Source of the DNA: Acidimicrobiia bacterium
Lineage (GTDB): Bacteria; Actinomycetota; Acidimicrobiia; Spongiisociales; ZC4RG35
Direction: 5' to 3'
Assembly (NCBI GenBank): GCA_009837815.1
Contig: VXSV01000076.1
Coordinates: 29,350-66,219, forward strand
Length of the DNA stretch: 36,870 nucleotides
Shown here piece by piece: positions 9,828-17,051 of this stretch; positions within the stretch are counted from its first letter, which is position 1; each line of letters opens with the position of its first letter. Position numbers and translations under genes: made by a program. The notes below the pieces were generated by a model. It saw only the letters and a program-made list of their open reading frames with translations, was not told the DNA's origin and did no database searches.

Positions 9828-10715
9828 TCACAGGCCCCGTCCCGAGACGGGAGCCCCGATCACCTCCGACGCAATCCTCTCCGCCGTCTCGTACTGTCCG
9901 GGACCGGGCTGAGTGATGGTGAACTCATTCGCGCCGGCCTCGGCGTATCGCCCCACCACCTCAGTGAAGGCCCCGTGGCTCGACCAGATGTCGGGAAGGC
10001 CCTGAGGGGCGGTGGTGAAGGCCTCGATGTGGACGGATCGGCTTATCTCGGTGGGGTCTCTGCCAATCCGATCGCATTCGGCGTCCAGGATCCGGTTCCG
10101 CTCGCCTATCTCCTCCACCGTCCCGAATGAGTTCCAGCGGTCACCAAACCGCGCACAGATGCGAAGCATCCGGCGACCGTGGGCAGCCACCGTGAACGGT
10201 GGGCGGGGCCGCTGCACGGGACGGGGACGGAGCCGGGCCTCCGACAACTCATAATGCCGACCATGATGGGAAACCGGCTCCCCCCGCAGCAAGCGGTCGA
10301 TGATCACCATCGCCTCGGAGAACCGGTCCACCCGCACCCCCGGCTCAAAGAGGGGGATCCCGAACCGGCGGTGCTCCTCCTCGAACCACCCGCAACCGAT
10401 TCCCACTTCCAGGCGGCCCTCGGAGATGTGGTCGACAGTGATGGCCTGCTGCGCCAGTAGCGCCGGATGCCGGAGGACGTTGCTGCTCACCAGGGTTCCC
10501 ACCCGGATACGGGACGTCTCGGCGGCCAGGGCGGCCAGCAGGGTCCACCCCTCGAAGAGAGGAGCGGTCGGATCGAGGGAGCGGAGGAGATGGTCGCAGT
10601 GCCAGAGACTGTCGAACCCCAACTCCTCGAAGTACCGCCACTTCTCGGCCAGGACCGGGTAGGGATCCGACTGCACCACGGTGACCCCGAACCTCAGTCC
10701 TTCCATCACTCCCAA
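9828..10715 (-). CDS. LLM class F420-dependent oxidoreductase (paralog 1)
   Basis: 'RFGVTVVQSDPYPVLAEKWRYFEELGFDSLWHCDHLL', 'ALAAETSRIRVGTLVSSNVLRHPALLAQQAITVDHISEGRLEVGIGCGWFEEEH' typical of luciferase-like F420 enzymes. Confidence 0.93.
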   Translation of the reverse strand: MGVMEGLRFGVTVVQSDPYPVLAEKWRYFEELGFDSLWHCDHLLRSLDPTAPLFEGWTLLAALAAETSRIRVGTLVSSNVLRHPALLAQQAITVDHISEGRLEVGIGCGWFEEEHRRFGIPLFEPGVRVDRFSEAMVIIDRLLRGEPVSHHGRHYELSEARLRPRPVQRPRPPFTVAAHGRRMLRICARFGDRWNSFGTVEEIGERNRILDAECDRIGRDPTEISRSVHIEAFTTAPQGLPDIWSSHGAFTEVVGRYAEAGANEFTITQPGPGQYETAERIASEVIGAPVSGRGL

Positions 10716-10776
10716 GCCTCCGATGGGGTCAATCCGGGCGGCCGCGCGGCGCTCCGGACGGTGGGATCAGGGAACC

Positions 10777-11649
10777 TCAGAGAACCTCCGAGGCGATCCG
10801 TTCGGCCGTCCGGTACTGCTCGGGCCGGGGTTGGTCGATTATGAACTCCTCCACTCCCGCTTCCCGGTAGGCGCCCGCCACCTCACAGAAGGCGTCGACG
10901 CTCGACCACGGGTTCGGAAAGCCCCCCGCTACCAGTTTGGGGACCGACACCCGCATAGAGCGGAGTATCTCTTTCGGATCGCGCCCTATCTTGTCGCAGG
11001 CCTCGTCGAGGAGCCGGTTCCGCTCGGCCATCTCCTCTGGCGTGCCGCTGGAGTTCCACCGGTCGGCGTAGCGGGCGCAGATCCGGATCATCCGGGGCTG
11101 GTGGGCCGCCAGGGTGAGGGGCGGGCGGGGCAACTGCACCGGGTAGGGGCGAAGCTTGGCCTCCGACAGCTGGTAGTGGTCCCCTTGGTAAGAGACCGTC
11201 TCGCCCCGGAGGAGCGGCTCGATGATCTCCATCGCCTCGGAGAAGCGGTCCACCCGCTCCCCGGGCTCGAAGAGGGGGATCCCGAACCGCTCATGTTCCT
11301 CCTCGAACCACCCGCAGCCGACCCCCACCTCCACGCGCCCCTGCGAAACATGGTCGACCGTGATCGCCTCCTGGGCCAGGAGGGCGGGATGGCGGAGCAC
11401 ATTGCTGCTCACCAGCACCCCCAAGCGAATCCGTGAGGTCTCGGCCGCCAGGGCGGAGAGAATGGTCCATCCCTCATAGAGGGGAACCGTCGAATCGCCG
11501 GTGAACAGAAGGTGGTCGCAGTGCCAGACGCTCTCGAACCCCAACTCCTCGAAGTACCGCCATTTCCGCACCAACACCGGGTACGGCTCGTACTGCATAG
11601 CGGAAATCCCGACTCTGAAACCTCTCATCACACCATCAACTCCACCCAA
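10777..11649 (-). CDS. LLM class F420-dependent oxidoreductase (paralog 2)
   Basis: Same motifs as paralog 1 throughout its length. Confidence 0.93.
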   Translation of the reverse strand: MGGVDGVMRGFRVGISAMQYEPYPVLVRKWRYFEELGFESVWHCDHLLFTGDSTVPLYEGWTILSALAAETSRIRLGVLVSSNVLRHPALLAQEAITVDHVSQGRVEVGVGCGWFEEEHERFGIPLFEPGERVDRFSEAMEIIEPLLRGETVSYQGDHYQLSEAKLRPYPVQLPRPPLTLAAHQPRMIRICARYADRWNSSGTPEEMAERNRLLDEACDKIGRDPKEILRSMRVSVPKLVAGGFPNPWSSVDAFCEVAGAYREAGVEEFIIDQPRPEQYRTAERIASEVL

Positions 11650-11674
11650 TCATGGGCGCCTTACCGCTCGGCCC

Positions 11675-11730
11675 CGGAAACCGAGAGGCGATCCCCTCGA
11701 CTGTCCCGTACCGGCCGGGGTGGGCTGCTT
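11675..11730 (-). pseudogene. Decayed 3' end of an additional LLM-oxidoreductase paralog
   Basis: Reverse strand CAGCCCACCCCGGCCGGTACGGGACAGTCGAGGGGATCGCCTC aligns with the C-terminal coding segment of paralog 2 (CAGCCCCGGCCCGAGCAGTACCGGACGGCCGAACGGATCGCCTC) with an apparent 1-nt deletion; it lies between paralogs 2 and 3. Confidence 0.55.
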
Positions 11731-11765
11731 TCTCCTCGCATGCCTGCCCGGCGGGCGGTGGCCCC

Positions 11766-12629
11766 TCAACGGCTCTGCTCGATGACCTGGGAGGCGATCC
11801 GCTCGACCATCTTGTACTGATCGGGCCGGGGCTCCACGAACAGGAACTCTTTCACCCCCGCCTCGGCGTACCGCCCCACCACCTCGGAGAAGGCTTCGGG
11901 GCTCGACCACATGTCGGGCAGGCCCTGGGGCGCCAGGGTGGAGTTCCCACCCAGATAGGAGCGGACAATCTCTGCCGGGTTTCTGCCGATCCGCCGACAT
12001 GCCTCGTCGACCAGTCGGTTGCGTCGGGCCAAGTCCTCCACCGTCCCGGTGGAATTCCAGGAATCGGCGTAGCGGGCGCAGATCCCCAGCATGCGGGGCT
12101 TGTGCCCGGCCAGCATGAAGGGCGGGCGGGGCGACTGGACGGGACGGGGGCGGAGCCGGGCCTCCGACAACTGGTAGTGGTCGCCCTCATAGGAGACGGT
12201 CTCCCCGCGCATCAGTGGGTCGATGATCTCCATCGCCTCGGAGAAGCGGTCCACCCGCTCCCTGGGTTCGTACAGAGGGATGTTGAACCACTCATGCTCC
12301 AACTCGTACCACCCCGCGCCCACCCCGAAGTCCAACCTTCCTTCGGAGATGTGATCGAGGGTGATGGCCTGCTGGGCGAGGAGCGCGGGGTGCCGGAAGG
12401 TGTTGCTGCTGACCAGCACCCCCACCCTGATCCGGGAGGTCTCGGCGGCCAGGGCGGCCAACACTGTCCATCCCTCGAAAAAGGGCTTGTCGGGATGGCC
12501 GGGGTTGTGAAAGTGGTCACAGGGCCAGATGCTGTCGAAGCCCAGTTCCTCGAAGTACCGCCAGTTGTCCAAAAGCACCTGGTACGGCTTCCACTGAGGG
12601 GTGTAAATGCCGAACCTCAATCCCTTCAC
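11766..12629 (-). CDS. LLM class F420-dependent oxidoreductase (paralog 3)
   Basis: Same family motifs ('LDHISEGRLDFGVGAGWYELEHEWFNIPLYEPRERVDRFSEAMEII'). Confidence 0.93.
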   Translation of the reverse strand: MKGLRFGIYTPQWKPYQVLLDNWRYFEELGFDSIWPCDHFHNPGHPDKPFFEGWTVLAALAAETSRIRVGVLVSSNTFRHPALLAQQAITLDHISEGRLDFGVGAGWYELEHEWFNIPLYEPRERVDRFSEAMEIIDPLMRGETVSYEGDHYQLSEARLRPRPVQSPRPPFMLAGHKPRMLGICARYADSWNSTGTVEDLARRNRLVDEACRRIGRNPAEIVRSYLGGNSTLAPQGLPDMWSSPEAFSEVVGRYAEAGVKEFLFVEPRPDQYKMVERIASQVIEQSR

Positions 12630-12736
12630 AACGCCAAGACCTCGACTCTCATCTGCTAGCGACTGTCAGAGACTCAAACATAACACGGGCAGGCGCCCGA
12701 CGTCCCGCAAAGGTCGGTCGACAAAACACCGGCCGG

Positions 12737-13645
12737 TCAGCAACGGGGCTCGATCACCTCCGAGGCGATCTTCTCGGCCATCTTGAGCTGCTCGGGGCGG
12801 GGCTGGTCCATGATGAACTCGTTTACGCCCGCCTCGGCGTAGCGCCCCACCACTTCACAAAACGCGTCGAGGCTCGACCAGGCGTCGGGCAGACCCTGGG
12901 CGGCCATGTTGGACGCCCACCCGTAGAAGGAGCGGATTATCTCGGTCGGGTCCCTCCCGATCCTCTCGCAGGCCTCGTCCAGTGCCCGGTTGCGCTCGGC
13001 CATCTCCGCCACCGTCCCGAAGGAGTTCCACCGGTCGGCGTAACGGGCGCAGATGGCCAGCATGCGGGGGCGGTGGGCGCCCAGGGTGAGCGGCGGGCGG
13101 GGAGACTGGACCGGACCCGGGCGGAGCCGGGCGCCCCGGAGTTGGTAGTACTCACCGTCGAAGGTGACCTCCTGGCCGCGGAGGAGGGAGTCGATGATCT
13201 CCACGGCCTCCGAGAAGCTCCGCACGAGCGTCGGCGGGTCGCCGAAGGGGATCCCGAACCGGTCGTGCTCCTCCACGAACCATCCGGCGCCCAAGCCGAG
13301 TTCCAGGCGGCCTTCGGAGATGTGGTCGATGGTGAGGGCCTCATGCGCCAGGAGGGCCGGGTGGCGGAAGGTGTTGCTGCCCACCAGGACCCCCACCCTG
13401 ATCCGGGAGGTCACGGTGGCCAGCGCGGCCAGGAGAGTCCACCCCTCGAAGTATGGATCCGACGGATTGGAGGGTCGGAGGAAGTGGTCGCAGTCCCAGA
13501 TGCTGTCGAAACCCAGTTCCTCGAAGTACCGCCACCGCTCCGCCAGGACCGGATACGGCTCGGCCTGATCGGTGCAGATCCCGTAGAGGATCCTCCCCTC
13601 CGCCATTACGTCACCGACAGCGCCATCCCCGGAGAGCTTACCCAA
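12737..13645 (-). CDS. LLM class F420-dependent oxidoreductase (paralog 4)
   Basis: Same family motifs ('IDHISEGRLELGLGAGWFVEEHDRFGIPF'). Confidence 0.93.
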   Translation of the reverse strand: MGKLSGDGAVGDVMAEGRILYGICTDQAEPYPVLAERWRYFEELGFDSIWDCDHFLRPSNPSDPYFEGWTLLAALATVTSRIRVGVLVGSNTFRHPALLAHEALTIDHISEGRLELGLGAGWFVEEHDRFGIPFGDPPTLVRSFSEAVEIIDSLLRGQEVTFDGEYYQLRGARLRPGPVQSPRPPLTLGAHRPRMLAICARYADRWNSFGTVAEMAERNRALDEACERIGRDPTEIIRSFYGWASNMAAQGLPDAWSSLDAFCEVVGRYAEAGVNEFIMDQPRPEQLKMAEKIASEVIEPRC

Positions 13646-13854: not shown

Positions 13855-14016
13855 CAACAACTCCTTCCTTGCTTCCAGGAGCCGTTCGGCCCCTGAACCA
13901 AAGCTAGTCCCACCGCTCAAGCGCTGCCTTGCGACCCCGGGCTTCGCCTTTCGATTGCGTCTCGGCGTCGGGGTCGTTACCGGGTGACCATGTGCGGAGA
14001 CCATCATTAAGGAACC

Positions 14017-15870
14017 ATGGGAGACCAACCCCCAACCGCCGGGCGCTCACTCCGCAGCCTGATCCTGTTCGGCGTCTCCGGTCCCCCGCCGCCCGACCAG
14101 GCCGAGGACGGGGCCTTCCTGGGCGACCTGGCTTCCCGGGGCATCCGGTCCTATGAACTCTCCTTCGTGAAGGGATTCCCATGGAAGGAGACCCGGTGCG
14201 CTCAGTTCGGCGCCGAGGCCTCGGCGAGGGGCTTTCGGCTGTCGGTCCACGCTCCCTACTTCGCAGTGCTGACCACCGAGGAGCCCGACAAGTCCCGGAT
14301 GTGTCTCTCCGCACTGGAGCACACCATGAAGCTGGGGCGTGAACTGGGGGCGCCCCTGGTGGTCGCCCACCCCGGTCATCTGAGGGGACGGGCCCCCGGC
14401 CAGGTGATGGACCTGATTAGGCGCCGCTTGGACGCCCTGGCTACCAAGGTGGCCGACCTGGGCGTGGGCCTGGGGCTCGAGACCGCCGGACGCCAGGGGG
14501 CCTTCGGGACGCTGGGCGACATCGCTCTCCTGGCCGCCGAGTTTCCCTTTGTCAGGCCGGTGATCGACTGGGCTCACCTGCACGCCCTCTCGGGAGGAGG
14601 ACTGGTGGACGCCGAGCGGTTCAAAACGGTGCTGTCCTTTCTGCGAGACTCCTTTCCGGCCTGGATGCTGTCTCCCCTCCACACTCACTTCACCGACAAC
14701 CGGTTCGGACCTTCAGGCGAGATCAGCCATGTTCCCTACGGCGAGGGAACGCTTCGCGCCGAGCCGCTGGTGGAAGCTGCTTACGAGTCGGGCATCTCCA
14801 TGGTGGTGATCTCCGAGGCCCGGGAGTGGGAGAGCCACTTGGCCATCGGACGGGAAGTCGCCACCACGGTCCGCCGCCTCGAACAGGTTCGGGAGAGGGG
14901 CGGCCCCAGGGCCGCCTCGGGGATGGTGTCCTTTCCCGACCCCGTGCCGGTGGTCCCCATAGAGGATCGCCACCGGCCCCGGGAGGCATCCCTCCCCATT
15001 CGCCTCTCCAACCTGGCAAAGCCCTTCTTTTCCGAGGGTTACACCAAGGGGGACCTGATCAGCTACTACGCCTCGGTGGCAGGGACGCTTCTCCCCCACC
15101 TCCGGGATCGGCCCCTGTCCATGTCCCGCTACCCCGACGGGATCGAGGGACCGTCCTTCTATGAAAAGCGGGCCCCCGGGCATCAGCCCGGTTGGATGAG
15201 AAAGCTCCCGGTGGATTCCCACTCCATGGGCGGGGAAATCGAGTTTCTCTGCGCGGATCATCCCGAGTCGCTGATGTGGTTCGCAAACATGGGCTGTGTG
15301 GAGACCCACCCCTTCCACTCCCGCTATCCCGACCTCGACCGTCCCGACTGGGCGGTGTTCGACTTCGACCCGGCCCCCGGCGCGTCGTGGTCGCAGGTGG
15401 TGGCGGGAGTCAGGCTGTGCGGGGTGGCGCTGGAGCGGCTCGGTCTGCGGTCCTACCCCAAGCTGTCGGGAAGCCGCGGCATGCACGTGTACGTGCCGCT
15501 CCGTCCGGTGCACAGCTATGGGAGGGTGCGGAGATTCGTGGAAGCGGTTGCCCGGCTGCTGGAGGCAGCCAACCCCGAGGACCTGACACTGGCCTGGGAT
15601 AAGCCGAAGCGATCCGGGAAGGTGTTCATCGACTACAACCGCAACGCTTTCGGCCAGACCGTCTCCTCGGTCTATTCGGTCCGCCCCCTCCCCCAAGCGC
15701 CCGTCTCGGTACCCCTCCTGTGGGAAGAGGTGGGCCGATACCGCAACGGCGACATCCACATCGGCAACCTGTGGGACCGCCTGTCCCGCTACGGCGACCT
15801 GTTCCTGGGAGTGCTGGCCGGGGACCAGACCCTCGACTCGGCCGAGGAGTCCCTGGACATCCCCTCCTGA
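14017..15870 (+). CDS. Fusion: endonuclease IV-like TIM barrel + LigD-type primase-polymerase domain
   Basis: 617 aa continuous ORF. N-half: 'LSVHAPYFAVL', 'LVVAHPGHL', 'GLGLETAGRQGAFG', 'PVIDWAHLHAL', 'LHTHFTDNRF', 'YGEG', 'VVISEAR' correspond to endonuclease IV metal-ligand motifs. C-half: 'GYTKGDLISYYASVAGTLLPHLRDRPLSMSRYPDGIEGPSFYEKRAPGHQPGWM', 'WAVFDFDPAPG', 'SGSRGMHVYVPL', 'GKVFIDYNRNAFGQTVSSVYSVRP' are LigD PolDom motifs. Confidence 0.9.
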   Translation: MGDQPPTAGRSLRSLILFGVSGPPPPDQAEDGAFLGDLASRGIRSYELSFVKGFPWKETRCAQFGAEASARGFRLSVHAPYFAVLTTEEPDKSRMCLSALEHTMKLGRELGAPLVVAHPGHLRGRAPGQVMDLIRRRLDALATKVADLGVGLGLETAGRQGAFGTLGDIALLAAEFPFVRPVIDWAHLHALSGGGLVDAERFKTVLSFLRDSFPAWMLSPLHTHFTDNRFGPSGEISHVPYGEGTLRAEPLVEAAYESGISMVVISEAREWESHLAIGREVATTVRRLEQVRERGGPRAASGMVSFPDPVPVVPIEDRHRPREASLPIRLSNLAKPFFSEGYTKGDLISYYASVAGTLLPHLRDRPLSMSRYPDGIEGPSFYEKRAPGHQPGWMRKLPVDSHSMGGEIEFLCADHPESLMWFANMGCVETHPFHSRYPDLDRPDWAVFDFDPAPGASWSQVVAGVRLCGVALERLGLRSYPKLSGSRGMHVYVPLRPVHSYGRVRRFVEAVARLLEAANPEDLTLAWDKPKRSGKVFIDYNRNAFGQTVSSVYSVRPLPQAPVSVPLLWEEVGRYRNGDIHIGNLWDRLSRYGDLFLGVLAGDQTLDSAEESLDIPS

Positions 15871-15920: not shown

Positions 15921-17051
15921 ATGGACGTCTACGGACGCATCAACATTCTGGGGGGCAGGTCGGTCCGCCTCCCCGCCTTGGACGTGACCGAGGCGATCAT
16001 CCTGGACAACGACCCTCTGAGCCGCGCCAAGATGTGGGCCGGCCAGGGCGCCGACTTTCTGCACGTGGTGGACCTGAACGCCGCCGCGCTGGGCGACTAC
16101 CAGAACCGCGACCTCATAGACCGGATCGTGGCGGAACTGGACACGCCGGTGCAGGTGGCGGGAGGCGTCCGCTCCCCCATCGAGGCGGCGCGGCTGATCC
16201 GCAACGGCGCCTGGAGGGTGGTGATGGGCACCGCCGCCATCGAGGAGCAGATCATGATCTGGGACCTGTGCCGGGAGTATCCGGACAAGATCGCCGTCTC
16301 CCTGGACGTCCGTCCCGACCAGGAGATAGTGACTCAGGGATTCTCGGAGAGAAGCGGCCGCTACCTCGAGGAAGTGCTGTTGGAGATGTCGTCGGCAGGA
16401 GTTGCCGCCTTCCTGGTGGCCGAAGCCGGACGCGACTCCCTCACCCAACCGCTCGACCTGGACATCTACGCCGAATGCCTGGAATTGGTGCCCGAGCCGG
16501 TGATAGTGGCCGGTGGGGTGGGGTCGGTGGAGGACCTACGCGCTCTTTCCCGACTGTCGGTCTCGGGCCGCAAGCTGGGGGGAGTGATCGTGGGAAGGGA
16601 GGTCACCCATGGCCGGTTCAGCCTCCAGCAGGCCAAGCAGACCGTGACGGCCGGTGAGGAAGCGCCGCCGCTCGCCCCCCGGGGAGGGATGAGCATGGTC
16701 CTCCGAGTGGACGATCTCGAGAAGATGTCCGCCTTCTACTCCAAGATTCTCGATCTCAGCGAAGTAGTCGCCCCGGCGGTGGCGACCCGCGGCTATGCGT
16801 GGATGGAAATCGGCGGGGGGGCCTACCTCATACTCCGAAAGAGGCGGGAAGGCGAGCCGCCATCGGCAGGAACCGCCGAGATCGTGCTGTGGACCGAAGA
16901 CACGAAACAGTGGGCGGACTACCTGGTCGGCCAGGGCTTGACGGTGATGAACACCTCTTCTGCCGAAACCGGATTGCCGGTCGACCTGACCGGGGTCGTC
17001 GACCCCGAGGGCAACACCGTCTGGGTGAGCAGGCGGCCCCAGACATCGTAG
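15921..17051 (+). CDS. HisA/HisF-related TIM-barrel protein fused to C-terminal VOC (glyoxalase-like) domain
   Basis: 376 aa from ATG 15921. 'ADFLHVVDLNAA', 'VQVAGGVRSPIEAARLI', 'VIVAGGVGSVEDLRALS', 'GVIVGREVTHGRFSLQQA' are HisA-like; 'MSMVLRVDDLEKMSAFYSKILDLSEV...VDPEGNTVWV' is VOC-like. Confidence 0.87.
   Translation: MDVYGRINILGGRSVRLPALDVTEAIILDNDPLSRAKMWAGQGADFLHVVDLNAAALGDYQNRDLIDRIVAELDTPVQVAGGVRSPIEAARLIRNGAWRVVMGTAAIEEQIMIWDLCREYPDKIAVSLDVRPDQEIVTQGFSERSGRYLEEVLLEMSSAGVAAFLVAEAGRDSLTQPLDLDIYAECLELVPEPVIVAGGVGSVEDLRALSRLSVSGRKLGGVIVGREVTHGRFSLQQAKQTVTAGEEAPPLAPRGGMSMVLRVDDLEKMSAFYSKILDLSEVVAPAVATRGYAWMEIGGGAYLILRKRREGEPPSAGTAEIVLWTEDTKQWADYLVGQGLTVMNTSSAETGLPVDLTGVVDPEGNTVWVSRRPQTS

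Follow-up and report, generated by a model that had tools for sequence, protein, structure and literature searches.

An endonuclease IV-type domain fused to a LigD-type primase-polymerase recurs in one order of Acidimicrobiia

What would a single protein that carries both an endonuclease IV (EndoIV)-type barrel and a LigD-type primase-polymerase (Prim-Pol) do in the cell, and would it belong to NHEJ or to the repair of single-strand gaps? The question is raised by one gene in a 36,870-nt stretch of DNA (called the window here) from an Acidimicrobiia bacterium (contig VXSV01000076.1, assembly GCA_009837815.1). A preliminary description of the window had reported a single uninterrupted frame of 617 aa. 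This was borne out: the ORF at 14017-15870 (+) runs from an ATG to a TGA with no stop codon inside, and the same two-domain ORF is present in dozens of MAGs. These independent full-length fusions rule out chance, and also a frameshift or a false join in assembly between the two domains; in the two genomes where the fusion looks split (G253 and G186), the assembly has runs of N at that point. The G+C and the third-position G+C are similar in the N- and C-half of the gene, so there is no sign of a recent junction. The features of the gene and its product are listed in Table 1.

Table 1. Features of the fusion gene and its product. Positions are those of the window, and residue numbers are those of the 617-aa protein.
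Feature	Position	Strand	Basis or remark
AGGA, ribosome-binding-like	14010-14013	+	directly 5' of the fusion gene, by eye
Whole fusion gene	14017..15870	+	617 aa plus stop; homologues known
EndoIV-type TIM barrel, ~residues 16-290	14062..14886	+	Pfam, AlphaFold model, Foldseek, profile matches to EndoIV structures
H78, counterpart of Nfo H69	14248..14250	+	conserved in 32/33 fusions, invariant in A3
H118, counterpart of Nfo H109	14368..14370	+	conserved in fusions, invariant in A3
E155, counterpart of Nfo E145	14479..14481	+	conserved in fusions, invariant in A3
D184-W-A-H187; D184 matches Nfo D179, H187 matches Nfo H182	14566..14577	+	conservation and alignment
H222-T-H224; H222 aligns with Nfo H216	14680..14688	+	varies between His and Gln in the fusions
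E235-I-S-H238; H238 matches Nfo H231, and E235 may stand in for D229	14719..14730	+	alignment
E267, counterpart of Nfo E261	14815..14817	+	conserved in fusions, invariant in A3
Linker, ~residues 291-327	14887..14997	+	moderate model confidence
LigD-type primase-polymerase domain, residues 328-596	14998..15804	+	Pfam, NCBIfam, structure-profile match, Foldseek
5'-phosphate pocket, N332, K335, K344	15010..15048	+	alignment to Prim-PolC; pocket residues named in PMC5663958
Catalytic D449-F-D451 (DxD)	15361..15369	+	invariant
H490 of the SGSRGMHVYVPL motif	15484..15486	+	nearly invariant
D539, third catalytic Asp	15631..15633	+	nearly invariant

The identities first proposed for the two domains, EndoIV-like and LigD-type, were confirmed. 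On the 617-aa protein, Pfam AP_endonuc_2 covers residues 38-272 (92.7 bits, cut-off 31.1) and LigD_Prim-Pol (PF21686) residues 343-596 (282.8 bits, cut-off 27.4). The NCBIfam model ligD_pol (TIGR02778) is passed with 234.1 bits (cut-off 214.7), and the nfo model (TIGR00587) is matched at 26.4 bits, far under its cut-off of 129.65. AlphaFold predicted the full protein with a pLDDT of 89.6 and a pTM of 0.84; both domains were modelled confidently, and Foldseek agreed with both assignments. Pfam and NCBIfam found no ligase domain in the fusion. A LigD_N phosphoesterase (PE) domain was absent from the protein (Pfam) and from its own genome. On both counts the protein is not a canonical LigD.

The N-terminal domain could be read as a sugar isomerase- or epimerase-type barrel, joined to the polymerase in an accidental or metabolic fusion; the Pfam family PF01261 takes in sugar isomerases, and the Foldseek list has epimerases. 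We regard this as very improbable. The predicted model has the EndoIV fold (TMt 0.78 to 4hno and 0.74 to 1qtw), with Foldseek TM scores of 0.78 to T. maritima EndoIV and 0.74-0.78 to E. coli EndoIV, against 0.58-0.62 for most sugar epimerases. A profile of 21 sequences (the A3 set, which combines fusions with archaeal proteins that are 22-30% identical) scores 2.6e-12 to 1e-9 against structures of endonuclease IV, and UV endonucleases rank lower. A His at the H216-type position is common to EndoIV and sugar epimerases. In the fusions this shared His is the variable one, whereas the counterparts of H69, H109, H182 and H231 are invariant; the EndoIV-specific ligands are thus kept, which disfavors the isomerase reading. 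Ligands, profile matches and fold together led us to reject it.

All nine metal-ligand positions of EndoIV have candidates in the N-domain. Seven of the tri-metal ligands (H78, H118, E155, D184, H187, H238, and E267) are invariant in the A3 set and nearly invariant across all fusions; these are the counterparts of Nfo H69, H109, E145, D179/H182, H231, and E261 that the preliminary description had picked out by motif. It had also placed H216 in the motif THFTD, at H224. A counterpart does exist, but it is H222, the earlier of the two His in 'LHTHF', that lines up with H216 when the profile is aligned to EndoIVs of solved structure, and an HMM-HMM alignment to the canonical Nfo of relatives gives the same result. 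D229, said to lack a clear match, has a candidate after all in the nearby E235. This Glu is invariant in the fusions and their archaeal relatives. In the alignment to 1QTW it falls opposite D229, with one residue inserted ahead of H238. The HMM-HMM alignment to the canonical Nfo of relatives has the same insertion near E235, shifted by one residue.

Positions 222 and 224 were read by eye in 33 fusions and are His/His in 7 (including that of the window), His/Gln in 9, and Gln/Gln in 17; both are His in the archaeal relatives. With Gln at the H216 counterpart in 17 of 33 fusions, the nuclease activity may be altered. Taken further, the N-domain might have no working nuclease and serve for DNA binding or as a structural platform, or be in decay, which would leave a tethered gap-filling Prim-Pol. 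The same Gln, the replacement of D229 and the low nfo score fit such a protein, as does the fusion of one genus (L036 478-2073, equivalent to L104), in which the N-domain ligands are lost and the Prim-Pol is intact. We nevertheless judge an inactive N-domain improbable, given the seven conserved ligands and the fact that L036/L104 is the lone exception. Judged from its sequence, the N-domain would be an AP endonuclease.

A separate canonical-type Nfo is encoded in nearly all sampled relatives. In the window's own assembly it appears as two partial matches on different contigs. Most canonical-type Nfo proteins of the order fall below the TIGR00587 cut-off, yet they score 95-130 bits. The searches also returned a set of mainly archaeal, stand-alone EndoIV-like barrels (L042-L074) with the signatures DWAHLHA and GE-x-x-H. 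Four were tested and all were below the Nfo family cut-off; they are possibly an uncharacterised nuclease family. Prim-Pol, Ku and ligase genes were looked for near these archaeal barrels, with no convincing match.

The C-terminal domain keeps the PolDom elements described for it at the outset, namely the DxD, the SGSRGMHVYVPL motif and the third Asp. Residues D449/D451, H490 and D539, together with N332, K335 and K344 of the phosphate pocket, are invariant or nearly so among the fusions, and the domain is predicted to act as a polymerase. The closest solved relatives are, in order, M. smegmatis Prim-PolC (1.2e-55), a Methanocella NHEJ polymerase and the LigD polymerases. Prim-PolC gives the best matches in both sequence and fold, including its complex with gapped DNA. 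The protein ends about 21 residues past F596, and the C-terminal Loop 3 extension of Prim-PolC (PMC5663958) is therefore absent. In a tree of 60 domains, in which the deep branches are weak, the Prim-Pols of the fusions form one clade (support 98/95). The sister of this clade (92/90) consists of the unfused Prim-Pols of G216 and G164 (L080 and L081). Prim-PolC stands apart from the fusion clade and groups with L082 and L083, which are separate proteins of two genomes (G236 and G160) of the window's genus. The unfused sister proteins (L080/L100 and L081/L101) represent either the state before fusion or a loss of the N-domain.

The two-domain architecture recurs across one order. A scan in which each GTDB species was represented by one genome gave 71 loci, around 36 of which belong to the Prim-Pol lineage of the fusion with 52-91% best-segment identity (48% for L036); almost all of these are full or contig-cut fusions. 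In whole-genome searches (genome set counted by hand), 53 of the 71 sampled genomes of the window's order had the fusion, and these represent 8 families. The 176 genomes searched from other orders of Acidimicrobiia gave no instance of it. Among plasmids, 623 records match the query, none covering at least 80% of it. Two contigs titled 'Acidobacteria bacterium' (L013 and L026) have the match coordinates of G192 and G125, from the window's own family and order, and their record titles look wrong. The literature searched, which had partial coverage, holds no description of this architecture.

The preliminary description had noted that the window encodes neither Ku nor a ligase. Both are indeed absent there, but both are encoded elsewhere in the genome, the ligase as one stand-alone ATP-dependent enzyme of 343 aa, the size of LigC. 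Ku and an ATP ligase thus occur together, as in non-conventional NHEJ, in which the domains of LigD are split and which is known and enriched in Actinobacteria (PMC7719229). In Streptomyces, for example, kuA is paired with a stand-alone polK (PMC5124664). No second Prim-Pol was detected in the window's genome, which is 94.4% complete; other species of the genus have two. The fusion is also the sole detected Prim-Pol in three genomes with Ku (G001, G113 and G183), and many fusion genomes have additional stand-alone Prim-Pols. Immediately 5' of ku in the window's genome (L003) is a 250-aa ORF that resembles, by eye, the C-terminal part of a helicase or restriction enzyme; a defence island is possible at this locus.

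Across 119 genomes of the order (tables transcribed by hand), 77 have both the fusion and Ku, 11 have the fusion but not Ku, 13 have Ku but not the fusion, and 18 lack both. For genomes at least 90% complete, the corresponding numbers are 57, 4, 5 and 14, with a Fisher p of 1.7e-8 for fusion versus Ku, a value that ignores phylogenetic relatedness. At the genus level, with kinship otherwise ignored, they are 29, 3, 3 and 7 (p 4e-4). All five Ku-only genomes of the set that is at least 90% complete have a three-domain LigD (ORFs of 833-897 aa) beside ku, and no genome of the order has both a canonical LigD and the fusion. Among Ku-positive genomes of this set, 57 have the fusion and the other 5 a Ku-linked canonical LigD; none has both, and none lacks both. 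The tracking of Ku and the exclusion of LigD point towards NHEJ and not away from it. This phyletic pattern, which is one of co-occurrence rather than interaction, favors a Ku-associated role.

An operon link to Ku or ligase was sought at the fusion locus and was absent, and in none of the loci examined did the fusion adjoin a ku or ligase gene, which weighs against the Ku link. In its favor, 8 of 18 ku neighborhoods sampled from fusion genomes contain a gene for an ATP ligase at 0.2-1.5 kb from ku and have no Prim-Pol. Directly 3' of the fusion in the window, one 376-aa ORF (15921-17051, +) combines a HisA-like barrel (PF00977) with a glyoxalase domain (PF00903), and in 22 related loci a homologue of this ORF is likewise matched 3' of the fusion. 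The unfused sister Prim-Pols of G216 and G164 are likewise close to histidine biosynthesis genes. Upstream of the fusion, four luciferase-like monooxygenase genes (PF00296) stand in a row (9828-13645, -).

The fusion is not confined to genomes with Ku. Four near-complete genomes (G038, G062, G213 and G273) have it without Ku, and G038 and G062 have neither Ku nor any ATP ligase. The fusion can thus be kept without Ku, and a role in gap repair is likely as well. It could even be a dedicated Ku-independent enzyme of BER and single-strand gaps, equivalent to a fused mycobacterial EndoIV, Prim-PolC and LigC system, that would cut at AP sites and fill 1-3 nt with NTPs. In mycobacteria, Prim-PolC and LigC take part in BER, where EndoIV is the end processor of greatest use to them (PMC5663958), and the matches of the C-domain to Prim-PolC and its gapped-DNA complex, like the Ku-less genomes, are consistent with this. 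The strong co-occurrence with Ku and the exclusion of LigD argue against it, as does the tree, which parts the fusion clade from Prim-PolC and places the relatives of Prim-PolC in separate proteins of the same genus. We consider an exclusively Ku-independent enzyme possible but doubtful. The early suggestion that the protein may act outside classical NHEJ thus fits the Ku-less genomes and sits poorly with the rest of the pattern.

We favor, with modest confidence, a split, non-conventional NHEJ in which the fusion both cleans ends and fills gaps, and it probably has a Ku-independent role at gaps too. From the observed architecture, predicted fold, conserved residues and phyletic pattern, we infer two catalytic activities, a partnership with Ku and a nucleotide preference. 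The EndoIV-type domain would convert blocked 3' ends (AP sites, 3'-phosphate, phosphoglycolate) to 3'-OH. The Prim-Pol domain would hold the 5'-phosphate across the gap or break and add one or a few nucleotides, probably ribonucleotides, and a separate ligase would carry out the final sealing. In this order, the fusion would supply the polymerase and end-cleaning jobs done elsewhere by canonical LigD, working with Ku and the stand-alone ATP ligase. It would probably also work independently of Ku at single-strand gaps, which another ligase, such as the NAD-dependent LigA, may seal.

That the nuclease module takes the place of the LigD 3'-phosphoesterase, as first proposed, is plausible, because PE is undetectable in 76 of 88 fusion genomes, the window's included. 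Against it, 12 of the 88 have PE, 11 in a PE-ligase protein without polymerase and one (G007) as a separate PE. The PE of LigD produces 3'-OH ends (PMC8656161), and mycobacterial gap repair by Prim-PolC and LigC is best served by EndoIV as 3'-end cleaner (PMC5663958), so the exchange of one for the other is chemically sensible. More tentatively, we suggest that the whole order carries out NHEJ largely without LigD, with an EndoIV-type nuclease fused to the polymerase in place of PE, and that this one enzyme serves both Ku-dependent joining and Ku-independent abasic-site and gap repair. If true, a single natural polypeptide would attest that the cleaning of 3' ends and the filling of gaps are coupled in one step, and the LigD phosphoesterase would be replaceable by an unrelated nuclease. 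The fusion would also be a 'Rosetta stone' link between EndoIV and Prim-Pols, as suggested by the mycobacterial BER work. The order, which is actinobacterial and poorly cultured, would offer a testable variant of NHEJ, and other Ku-positive genomes without LigD are worth re-examining for such substitutes.

Four known systems resemble the fusion in part. It shares with LigD (POL-PE-LIG) and Ku the Prim-Pol family with its catalytic and 5'-phosphate residues, a predicted 3'-end-cleaning nuclease in the same chain and a distribution tied to Ku; it differs in having no ligase domain, in having a non-homologous EndoIV-type barrel and no PE, and in not lying next to ku. The mycobacterial system of Prim-PolC/LigC and EndoIV (PMC5663958) contains the closest solved Prim-Pol, and the same pair of activities is expected on 1-3 nt gaps. 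There, however, nuclease and polymerase are separate, and the fusion lacks the Loop 3 extension and forms a separate clade. In the split NHEJ of Streptomyces (kuA-polK, ligC-polR; PMC5124664), polymerase, ligase and Ku are also on separate genes, and a stand-alone Prim-Pol is able to serve instead of LigD; those Prim-Pols are PolDom-like with no nuclease fusion described, and the polymerase genes are beside ku or ligC. Finally, Nfo/Apn1 and the EndoIV-like barrels of Bathyarchaeota, Thermoprotei and Desulfurococcales have the TIM barrel predicted for the fusion and a metal-ligand pattern that corresponds at seven positions, and the archaeal barrels share the DWAHLHA and GE-x-x-H signatures with the fusion. 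All of these are stand-alone proteins, whereas in this order the barrel is fused to a Prim-Pol in genomes that also encode a separate canonical-type Nfo.
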